IMG/VR virus record: IMGVR_UViG_3300025096_000134
Location: 1 to 23,712 of that record
DNA length: 23,712 nt
Origin: a virus
Reading direction: 5' to 3' (one strand)
A program made the position numbers and the translations under genes. Positions within the stretch are counted from its first letter, which is position 1, and the number at the start of each line of letters is the position of its first letter. Positions 486-4,082 of the stretch are shown piece by piece. Under the pieces are notes generated by a model that saw only the letters and a program-made list of their open reading frames with translations, had not been told where the DNA came from and made no database searches.

Positions 486-565
486 TAGTAAGCACTCAGA
501 GATAAATGTATTAGAGATGATGCAATGGATCCCCAAATGAGAATCTTAATTGCGATCAAAGTCAT
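485..565 (-). CDS. 26-aa membrane microprotein between two coupled genes
   Basis: This tiny frame reads MTLIAIKILIWGSIASSLIH and ends LSLSAY: nearly all hydrophobic, enough for one membrane span. Its ATG overlaps the stop of the 71-aa gene (ATGA at 562-565) and its TAA overlaps the ATG of the 54-aa gene (TAATG at 483-487). A tiny frame that exactly fills the space between two genes, with coupling overlaps at both ends, is unlikely to be accidental, though it is too short for compositional evidence. Function unknown; by context it belongs to a run of three membrane peptides. It could alternatively act as a translated leader that delivers ribosomes to the next gene. Confidence 0.5.
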   Translation of the reverse strand: MTLIAIKILIWGSIASSLIHLSLSAY

Positions 566-777
566 CGAACAGCACTAAACTGACTACCACCATCCTTTAA
601 AATGCAATCTATTGTGGAGGGATGTGCATTTAAATAAGGTACATCATGTACAGCAACATTCCTAGCATCCCAAGCATCTTCTGCATAAGTGCAAATTGAT
701 GTGTGATGCCGTGTTTCGTCTAAATATTGGACTGTGTAATGAGACACGAAATTAGCCGTGGGCTCGCATAAATTCAA
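562..777 (-). CDS. Conserved-looking 71-aa protein, TTG start uncertain
   Basis: The frame has the alternating hydrophobic pattern of a small alpha/beta protein: a strand-like segment HYTVQYLDE, then TSICTYAEDAWDARNVAVHD (helix) and a segment with VPYLNAHPSTIDCILKD. This layout (short strand pair, helix with A.DAWDAR, then V.YL..HP) resembles small hypothetical proteins common in marine T4-like phages. There is no ATG or GTG in frame before residue 1; the first usable codon is TTG at 777, just after a perfect 14-nt palindrome (776-789), and an in-frame stop lies at 790-792. The stop overlaps the start of the 26-aa membrane peptide gene. Function unknown. Confidence 0.6.
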   Translation of the reverse strand: MNLCEPTANFVSHYTVQYLDETRHHTSICTYAEDAWDARNVAVHDVPYLNAHPSTIDCILKDGGSQFSAVR

Positions 778-821: not shown

Positions 822-1088
822 TCATCTCAACACCACTTTTGCAGTAGGATAAATCTCTTTTAGATGATCTTCAATACCCTTCTGTAAAGCTGGTTTGTTT
901 AACATGCATGGATTACACCATGCTCCTATATTAGGGCAATCAATACAATGTGATGGAGACGATTCCACTCTAAGTGTAATTGTTTTACCACGAACTCTAA
1001 CTATCTCAAGAATTCCCCCATCACTTTCTATATGATTTTTAATACCAATAAGAGATAATTCAATATCTTTAAAGGAAAATTGCGCCAA
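822..1088 (-). CDS. NifU C-terminal-domain-like iron-sulfur protein
   Basis: The 88-aa product matches the layout of the NifU C-terminal (Nfu) domain, which holds a [4Fe-4S] cluster between two subunits and hands it to target proteins: a helix with GIKNHIESDGG (domain signature with DGG), two strands (LEIVRVRGKTITLRV), a CxxCP motif (C48-I-D-C51-P), then LQKGIEDHLKE and PTAKVVL as in Nfu proteins. Unlike ordinary Nfu, the CxxC is followed by a second pair (C58-N-P-C61). The start is placed at TTG 1088 because AAGGA at 1096-1100 lies 7 nt upstream; an in-frame TTG at 1106 is possible but has no such site. The gene overlaps the upstream 52-aa gene by 20 nt. Iron-sulfur maturation genes are known in marine phages; the role of this one in infection is inference. 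Confidence 0.7.
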   Translation of the reverse strand: MAQFSFKDIELSLIGIKNHIESDGGILEIVRVRGKTITLRVESSPSHCIDCPNIGAWCNPCMLNKPALQKGIEDHLKEIYPTAKVVLR

Positions 1089-1227
1089 TAATAAATCCTT
1101 TAGCAAATGAAATACACACTACTTGATAATCAGAAAGTCCAAACTTATCTTGGAACTTCTTAAGTAGGTTCTTATCCCATTCAACAACTTTATCGAATCC
1201 ACCTTTAACTTTACTTCTTAATGACAT
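1069..1227 (-). CDS. 52-aa protein with amphipathic N-terminus and hydrophobic tail
   Basis: The frame starts with ATG at 1227 and ends at TAA 1069. The N-terminal two thirds are charged and probably helical (MSLRSKVKGGFDKVVEWDKN, then LLKKFQDKFGLSDYQ), and the C-terminal ~18 residues are hydrophobic (VVCISFAKGFIIGAIFL), consistent with a tail-anchored or membrane-associated protein. It sits 8 nt after the basic 175-aa gene and overlaps the NifU-like gene, whose ribosome binding site lies inside this frame. The weak AGGT upstream gives only modest support for the start. Codon pattern and fit between neighbours support a real gene; function unknown. Confidence 0.6.
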   Translation of the reverse strand: MSLRSKVKGGFDKVVEWDKNLLKKFQDKFGLSDYQVVCISFAKGFIIGAIFL

Positions 1228-1235
1228 GATGATAC

Positions 1236-1763
1236 CTAGGTCAACAATCTATTTAGTTTAACACTATTTGCTTTTTCCCAAATAGTATCTTCATAAGTCA
1301 TATGTTTTTTACCAACTTGAGTACTAAATTCTCCTTTCTTTACTTTAAGTTTACCTGCGGTATCACTCTTCTTCTTACCCAATCCACCTTTTCTAGTGGC
1401 ATGTAACTTAGCAGATGAACTACCTTTTTGTTTAACTAAAACTGAATCTTGGTCATGCTTTGCAGCAACATTCTTCATATCTTTTTTAAACTTACGCTTA
1501 CTCTTTTTACCTGAGGTAACAAAGTAAGACCTCTCTTTAACCTTTTTCTCCTCACCAGTCTTAGTATCTTTCTCTGAATATGTACCAGTGGTTTTCTTAG
1601 GACCATATCCTCTACCACGAAGATCTTTCTCTAATTGCTTAGATCTAGACTTATTCTCCTTTTTAGATTTATCACCTCTCTCAGCAGATACAGTTGCATG
1701 AGATTTCTTCTTATCCTTTGCTCTTGCAACTACACGAGCTAAACCACCTTCATCTAATTTCAT
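1236..1763 (-). CDS. Highly basic protein with DUF3293-like pattern
   Basis: The 175-aa product is extremely rich in Lys (with Ser, Thr, Gly). It opens MKLDEGGLARVVARAKDKKK and has a central segment with LEKDLRGRGYGPKKTTGTYS, then ERSYFV and later KHDQDSVLV. This order (short helix, GYG..  .TG.Y, E-S/R-FV, a helix, then QDSVL) resembles the DUF3293-type proteins found in marine T4-like phages, where they are unassigned. High positive charge suggests nucleic acid binding, possibly with the virion or packaged DNA; that is inference. ATG at 1763 is preceded by AGAGGT at a 7-nt spacing and overlaps the stop of the 32-aa membrane peptide (ATGA). Confidence 0.85.
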   Translation of the reverse strand: MKLDEGGLARVVARAKDKKKSHATVSAERGDKSKKENKSRSKQLEKDLRGRGYGPKKTTGTYSEKDTKTGEEKKVKERSYFVTSGKKSKRKFKKDMKNVAAKHDQDSVLVKQKGSSSAKLHATRKGGLGKKKSDTAGKLKVKKGEFSTQVGKKHMTYEDTIWEKANSVKLNRLLT

Positions 1764-2844: not shown

Positions 2845-3270
2845 TTATTTATTATCTAGCAACCCTTTTTTAATTAGCTTTTGTAGCTCTGCTGTACTAC
2901 CAGTAAAAATAGCATTATTAGTAACACTAGTTGGACCCTTAGATTTGGTCTCGTCAATCTCTTTTACTTTCTTTTGCAGATCCATCAATTTATCTGCAAT
3001 GTCAGCAGTTGACTTTAATACCTGACCAGCAACTTCATATGCTCTAGGAGAACCAGACCCATCAGCAACTTCCATAATACCATTAAGAGTCTCTTGACCC
3101 TTTTCTATTAAAGAATATAATTGACCTCTTGTATATTCATAATCTTTATCTATATCTACTTTTACTAATTGATCTTTTCTTACAGCACATCCACCTTCTG
3201 GAGTATTACTTACTTCAACATCAATAGTTTTAGAGGTAGTATTCAATGCATCATCAATTTTTTTGGACAT
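2845..3270 (-). CDS. gp16: Small terminase subunit gp16
   Basis: The small terminase recognises or organises phage DNA for the packaging motor and stimulates the large subunit gp17. The 141-aa product (T4 gp16 is 164 aa) has the family core: DKDYEYTRGQLYSLIEKGQE, a helix with LNGIMEVADGSGSPRAYEVA, and then the helical hairpin GQVLKSTADIADKLMDLQKK that forms the oligomerising coil. The C-terminal segment with TGSTAELQKLIKKGL is also typical. ATG 3270 overlaps the gp15 stop (TAATG) and has an AGGAGG at 3278-3283, 7 nt upstream, the best ribosome binding site in the window. Unlike T4, gp17 does not follow directly. Confidence 0.88.
   Translation of the reverse strand: MSKKIDDALNTTSKTIDVEVSNTPEGGCAVRKDQLVKVDIDKDYEYTRGQLYSLIEKGQETLNGIMEVADGSGSPRAYEVAGQVLKSTADIADKLMDLQKKVKEIDETKSKGPTSVTNNAIFTGSTAELQKLIKKGLLDNK
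2846..2853 (-). promoter_or_regulatory. Possible late promoter AATAAATA before the 155-aa membrane protein
   Basis: AATAAATA on the minus strand differs from TATAAATA, the T4 gp55-dependent late promoter core, at the first base. It overlaps the last codons of gp16 and lies 19 nt before the ATG at 2826, a suitable distance for a short leader. It could separate expression of the left accessory genes from the gp16 transcript. AT-rich sequence makes chance matches common. Confidence 0.35.
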
Positions 3271-4082
3271 TATACATCCTCCTGTCTAGTAGGACTATAC
3301 TTCTTGGAATCATCATACATTGAAGTAACCTCAGTAAATCCAAAGTCATCCTCTGGTGAAGCATTAATAGGATCAGGTTCAACTGTATACCTCATTTCAC
3401 GCTTAGCTGTCCTAATATCAGTATCTGCATAGTAATCAACCTGAACCTTCCTAATAAGACCATCTGTAGTATCAGCAATAGGTCCGAATAGATAGGACTT
3501 TGCCATAAAATTAAAGGTGTACATCAATACCCTTCTAGTTGAAAAGTCACCTTCATACTCATCACTAAATGATATGTTCTCTAATACAATAGGAATATCT
3601 CTTTTCTCTCCTATAGAATCTACTAAATCAATAGTAACATTAAATGCTGGTTGGAAGAATGGAAGTATCTGTTCTACGATCTGTAATGCATCATCATTTA
3701 ACTTAGTCATCACATTGAGTTCAAACCCTATATTGTAAGGTACTGGAAGATATACTTTCTTTGCTTTCTTATTAGATGGGTCAGTACTATCAACTGCTTT
3801 AAATGTTCTAGTTATGCTAGCTTTTCTACTAGGATCATAAGACATACTGGACATCTCAAATGACATCCTAGGTAATGTAATAGCAACTGCTTTTGATAAC
3901 TCTGCTTGTTGCTCAAGTTTTGCAAGGAACTTTTGCTTAGGACCATATATCAATGGAACTTTAGTCTCACTAAGAGTACCACCAGTTCTATCATCATGTC
4001 GAATATGAATATCATTAAACAGTGTGCCAAAAGCAATAACTGTTTTTCTCAGAATTTCGTGATAAAAATAAGTTCCTAACAT
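3270..4082 (-). CDS. gp15: Tail completion / sheath stabilisation protein gp15
   Basis: gp15 forms a hexameric cap on the finished tail, contacting the tail terminator gp3 and last sheath ring, and provides the docking face for the neck (gp13, gp14). The 270-aa length matches T4 gp15 (272 aa). Recognisable stretches are the N-terminal GTYFYHEILRKTVIAFGTLF, the segment DRTGGTLSETKVPLIYGPKQ, and RRVLMYTFNFMAKSYLFGPI, which are typical of this family in marine T4-like phages. Start ATG 4082 overlaps the gp14 stop (TGATG). Its place between gp14 and gp16 is the T4 order. No oddities seen. Confidence 0.92.
   Translation of the reverse strand: MLGTYFYHEILRKTVIAFGTLFNDIHIRHDDRTGGTLSETKVPLIYGPKQKFLAKLEQQAELSKAVAITLPRMSFEMSSMSYDPSRKASITRTFKAVDSTDPSNKKAKKVYLPVPYNIGFELNVMTKLNDDALQIVEQILPFFQPAFNVTIDLVDSIGEKRDIPIVLENISFSDEYEGDFSTRRVLMYTFNFMAKSYLFGPIADTTDGLIRKVQVDYYADTDIRTAKREMRYTVEPDPINASPEDDFGFTEVTSMYDDSKKYSPTRQEDV

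Follow-up and report, generated by a model that had tools for sequence, protein, structure and literature searches.

Nfu proteins are late iron-sulfur (Fe-S) carriers in which the cluster is held by one cysteine pair per subunit. A [4Fe-4S] cluster is bridged between two subunits of NFU1, each of which contributes one CxxC (PMC9313013). In chloroplasts, NFU2 serves photosystem I and ferredoxin, and its loss leads to fewer photosystem I proteins (PMC5890173). Arabidopsis chloroplast NFU2/CnfU (2z51) and the C-domain of human NFU1 (2m5o) have the same fold as the viral protein analysed here and the same position of the canonical CxxC, but they lack its extra CxxC: each active domain has one CxxC, by which clusters are bridged or carried (PMC9313013, PMC5890173).

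Marine viruses, too, are known to have Fe-S assembly genes (PMC5332604, PMC8940887), in agreement with the original prediction on this DNA, made from the sequence alone, which had mentioned Fe-S carrier genes of marine phages. Ordinary phage Nfu (phrog_29737) is carried by P-SSM2 (nifU, PSSM2_228) and P-TIM68 (AVU42_gp100) as well as by two loci related to the one described here, L344 and L353. In P-TIM68, a protein annotated as hypothetical (L236:5995-6276) proves to be an ordinary Nfu whose inter-strand loop is long; it is encoded two genes past the terminase large subunit. The ordinary form and the four-cysteine form reported below have in common the Nfu fold, a CxxC of the C58/C61 type and cyanophage-type genomes. 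The ordinary form, however, has a single CxxC per subunit without a CxDCP insert and retains GGACxxC and TL[KR]xGIE; it matches phrog_29737 with E values of 1e-29 to 1e-58, whereas the four-cysteine proteins match it weakly (E 1e-8 to 0.03).

Outside the Nfu family, an Fe-S cluster is bound by the M2 motif of anamorsin/Dre2, a protein of Fe-S assembly (PMC8251831); this motif, CX2CX7CX2C, is also a twin CX2C and has almost the same spacing. Anamorsin is an unrelated protein with seven residues between the pairs against six in the four-cysteine Nfu, and the likeness is one of motif only. No publication naming a phage Nfu with extra cysteines or CX2CX6CX2C was found in the literature searched, which lay for the most part outside subscription papers.

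The four-cysteine gene and its extra CxxC

The window, that is, the whole stretch of 23,712 nucleotides that was analysed, encodes T4-like gp15, the terminase small subunit and further cyanophage-type virion genes, which bears out the assignment of the Nfu-type gene to a phage. This gene had been predicted with cysteines C48, C51, C58 and C61, a DGG, paired strands and LQKGIE, all of which are present, on the minus strand. The features used in the analysis are the following.

822-1088 (stop codon included), minus strand: four-cysteine Nfu-type gene, 88 aa, TTG start (PF01106, AF2 model, PDB matches)
1096-1101, minus strand: AAAGGA, Shine-Dalgarno-like, 7 nt ahead of the TTG at 1088 (from the sequence; same AAAGGA-7 nt-TTG in L132)
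918-956, minus strand: insert of 13 residues (45-57, PSHCIDCPNIGAW) carrying C48/C51, no counterpart in ordinary viral Nfu
936-947, minus strand: extra CxxC, C48 and C51 (CIDC, then Pro); CxDCP in 8/8 distinct four-cysteine proteins
906-917, minus strand: canonical Nfu CxxC, C58 and C61 (CNPC), in register with the CxxC of ordinary Nfu
1069-1227, minus strand: small gene, 52 aa, immediately upstream, with 20 nt of overlap at the Nfu start; positional anchor, conserved ahead of four-cysteine or ordinary Nfu
562-777, minus strand: small gene, 71 aa (phrog_8866), directly downstream; follows ordinary Nfu in L344/L353 and four-cysteine Nfu in L132
3-155, minus strand: 5′ part of a 2OG-Fe(II) oxygenase homologue, truncated at the end of the window; in one cluster with L154:9214-9837 (PF13759, E = 4e-10)
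2845-3270, minus strand: terminase small subunit (gp16), which fixes the locus (phrog_445, E = 7e-49)
3270-4082, minus strand: gp15 tail sheath stabiliser, which fixes the phage type (PF16724, E = 1.7e-88)

The open reading frame extends over 822-1106 if read from the first TTG and over 822-1088 from the TTG at 1088; the plus-strand frame at 822-1088 is full of stops. An ATG for this frame is absent from the window sequence. Read from the TTG at 1088, the protein is LAQFSFKDIELSLIGIKNHIESDGGILEIVRVRGKTITLRVESSPSHCIDCPNIGAWCNPCMLNKPALQKGIEDHLKEIYPTAKVVLR, with residue 1 read as Met, DGG at residues 23-25 and LQKGIE within helix 2. Four-cysteine relatives other than L132 start with GTG, in some of them with a stop codon immediately 5′. 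The overlap of the frames and the absence of an ATG raised the possibility of a frameshift fusion of the 52-aa gene with the Nfu gene; this was ruled out since several relatives have a stop right before GTG and some have another upstream gene.

The virus is T4-like and of cyanophage type, and its protein is a divergent member of the Nfu type; the NifU-C/Nfu fold that had been proposed for it is upheld by profile, model and structure comparisons. Its only Pfam match is NifU (PF01106, E = 2.2e-6), at 28.1 bits just above the cut-off of 27. Two relatives score higher (L154, 38.9 bits; L141, 38.3 bits) and one falls below the cut-off (L132, 20.3 bits). When a profile built solely from four-cysteine proteins was run against the PDB, five Nfu structures ranked first, the best being 2z51 (E = 1.4e-6), with just the first two matches below 0.01. 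AlphaFold (AF2) models were obtained for the window protein (pLDDT 79.8, from an alignment including ordinary viral Nfu) and for the L154 protein (pLDDT 84.7, from four-cysteine rows only), and both have the helix-strand-strand-helix-strand topology of Nfu; in the window protein the elements are H6-22, E26-33, E36-42, H65-79 and E84-87. The DGG that ends helix 1 is found in the window protein and most members and is DYA in L132. Both models are weakest in the cysteine loop, which has the lowest confidence in that of the window (pLDDT block means of 66 and 49), so the models support no reading of metal geometry. With the model as query, the top five Foldseek matches in the PDB were Nfu proteins (E 0.004 to 0.27), and VIA-align gave 2z51 a Z of 8.3 over 72 residues (rmsd 3.1), with a Z above 7 for three further Nfu.

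Neighbouring classes were also considered. NifU proper, the full-length three-domain protein (TIGR02000), reaches 14 bits against a cut-off of 273, through its C-terminal part only. CIAPIN1/anamorsin does not fit a protein with the spacing CX2CX6CX2C and NifU as sole Pfam match. Thioredoxin membership was rejected, the predicted topology being that of Nfu and the sequence matches not being significant.

The original prediction had taken the second CxxC as the extra pair, and here the alignment reverses the assignment. When four-cysteine proteins were aligned with eight ordinary viral Nfu, C58/C61 fell on the ordinary CxxC and residues 45-57 were unmatched in all eight. Once the insert is removed, the window protein aligns without gaps to the ordinary Nfu of related phages through helix 2, with CxxC and L[KR]xGIE in register: LRVESS-CNPCMLNKPALQKGIE in the window and VRLGGA-CATCAMSTMTLRNGIE in a related phage's ordinary Nfu. 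In HMMER local alignments either pair may land on the ordinary CxxC. C58/C61 sit where Nfu proteins have their CxxC, after strand 2 and ahead of helix 2 and with LKxGIE in register, and an additional pair precedes them. This gap-free register identifies CxDCP and its spacer, directly ahead of the ordinary CxxC, as the addition at the level of the alignment.

Locus, relatives and selection

The window gp15 is 72% identical to that of Synechococcus phage S-SRM01 and 83-88% identical to those of loci with a four-cysteine Nfu. In the longer contigs the four-cysteine gene lies between the genes for the small and large terminase subunits, and in the shorter ones after the small-subunit gene. The terminase interval of four-cysteine contigs includes one or two 2OG-Fe(II) oxygenases, a plastoquinol terminal oxidase (L129) and a plastocyanin (L132), neighbours whose annotation points to cyanobacterial hosts. 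In L344/L353 the order is DUF6450, a small gene, the 52-aa gene, ordinary Nfu (whose ATG overlaps the stop of the 52-aa gene) and the 71-aa gene, and the window has this order apart from an extra gene of 175 aa. The ordinary Nfu of these two loci thus occupies the identical slot, between the same two small genes, and by gene order the four-cysteine gene is the positional counterpart of its relatives' ordinary Nfu. Both forms were never seen on one contig, all contigs being fragments. Since related phages have either form at the same genome spot, the four-cysteine Nfu has the appearance of a genuine variant maintained by selection.

In IMG/VR the motif was found on 17 contigs, each with a true relative; they encode seven distinct proteins besides that of the window, to which these are 27-39% identical. 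The eight distinct proteins share C-x-D-C-P-x4-[YW]-C-x-P-C, in which four cysteines, the D and two P are kept, and features of ordinary Nfu have decayed: the GGAC ahead of CxxC is gone, and GIE is lost in most members. In the closest relative of the window protein (L132:5516-5842, 39%), DGG is replaced by DYA, yet all four cysteines are kept.

Because these contigs had been found by their cysteine pattern, the conservation of the cysteines in them is partly by construction, and searches blind to the cysteines were therefore run. The N-terminal half alone recovered 14 loci, all among the same contigs and 14/14 with four cysteines. The upstream 52-aa gene was used as an anchor at 80 loci among at least 291 relatives; in the downstream DNA covered, an Nfu-type gene was present at 28 of the 80 (8 four-cysteine, 17 ordinary and 3 cut at the contig end). 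Intermediates between the two forms were absent from both searches (14 loci and 28 Nfu-bearing anchor loci). Conservation of the four cysteines in relatives had been named beforehand as a check; the motif is kept in all 17 contigs and the cysteine-blind searches agree. A hypergeometric value for motif conservation was discarded as circular.

Close relatives are under purifying selection, with pairwise dN/dS of about 0.07-0.37 among five four-cysteine members. In a tree of about 75 residues built without the insert, the four-cysteine proteins stand apart from ordinary Nfu with an ultrafast bootstrap of about 95%. No cellular copy was found by a motif search of 84,980 prokaryotes (one genome per species), where 0 of 19 matches, attributable to chance, lay in an Nfu-like reading frame, and a profile-based scan of prokaryote genomes gave zero matches. 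A single-sequence IMG/VR search with the window protein found zero relatives, and in an annotated phage collection its one weak match was an ordinary Nfu. A loose pattern of DGG and four cysteines gave at least 120 matches, nearly all by chance, with one true relative (L117); allowing variable distances between the pairs brought in no new members.

Possible roles of the four cysteines

We prefer a one-subunit Fe-S site because of NFU1, NFU2, the Fe-S genes of marine viruses and the twin CX2C of anamorsin, and we give slightly less than an even chance to the proposal that the protein is a variant Fe-S carrier with the cluster held within a single subunit. CxDCP and its spacer ahead of the ordinary CxxC would create a compact C-x2-C-x6-C-x2-C site in each subunit. 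With four cysteines, one subunit could ligate a [2Fe-2S] or a [4Fe-4S] cluster by itself, whereas in ordinary Nfu two subunits bridge one. We infer that during infection the cluster would then pass to client proteins of the host or the phage; photosynthetic or redox proteins are plausible recipients. A broader proposal is offered a little more tentatively: the proteins may form a phage-specific Nfu class in which an inserted CxDCP knuckle completes the half-site of ordinary Nfu, giving one subunit all four cysteines; a cluster (or metal) could then be held and delivered without dimerisation. Such a class may replace ordinary Nfu at the same cyanophage locus.

The same C-x2-C-x6-C-x2-C spacing also suits zinc or mononuclear iron, as do four cysteines set in two short knuckles with prolines. 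The CxDCP and CxPC knuckles might hold one structural metal, with the Nfu fold serving as a small binding or regulatory module, and the retention of the cysteines while ordinary Nfu features relaxed is consistent with this. Further structural neighbours of the model include several zinc-transporter C-terminal domains and NusA or ribosomal KH-type domains, which shows that the arrangement is common and no more. However, the ordinary CxxC stays in register, the gene has the slot of the ordinary Nfu of related phages, and none of the neighbour genes suggests gene regulation, so that we regard a zinc or mononuclear iron site as rather unlikely. The metal-binding regulator suggested in the original prediction found no support in the analysis.

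The register of C58/C61 and helix 2, which align to ordinary Nfu without gaps, together with LQKGIE in the window protein, would also suit an ordinary dimeric Nfu acting through C58/C61, with C48/C51 in an accessory role, as a redox switch, in sulfur handling or in contact with clients. This appears improbable: CxDCP is as strictly kept as CxPC in all members, and some members lack GIE or DGG, a pattern not easily accounted for if function resided in the canonical site only. Thiol-disulfide chemistry in place of metal binding is less probable again: [WY]CxPC resembles a thioredoxin active site, with an aromatic residue ahead of CxPC, a helix after it and weak thioredoxin matches at about residues 55-79, but these are not significant (E 0.33), the predicted helix-strand-strand-helix-strand topology is not that of thioredoxin, and a redox pair alone leaves the conserved CxDCP unexplained.

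A four-cysteine phage Nfu where relatives keep the ordinary form allows half-site and full-site carriers to be compared as they occur in nature. It also suggests that cyanophages adapt the handling of Fe-S clusters or metals in the infected photosynthetic cell.

Other genes of the interval

The auxiliary genes of the terminase interval vary among loci (L132:6069-6446, L129:3524-4057 and L154:10245-10781; plastocyanin, plastoquinol terminal oxidase and 2OG-Fe(II) oxygenases). The extra gene of the window (1236-1763, minus strand) encodes a lysine-rich protein of 175 aa that matches nearly the entire S-AdoMet_lyase profile (PF23780, E = 2.4e-16), is 41% identical to a P-SSM2 region and has zero matches in the other four-cysteine loci compared. 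It may be a SAM lyase with an anti-restriction function, or a related protein that serves another purpose. The 52-aa gene gave no significant Pfam or PHROG match; it ends in a C-terminal FAKGFIIGAI(F/L)L, occurs also in loci L321-L398 and has at least 291 IMG/VR relatives. In about one third of the 80 loci an Nfu-type gene lies downstream of it, mostly less than 700 bases away.
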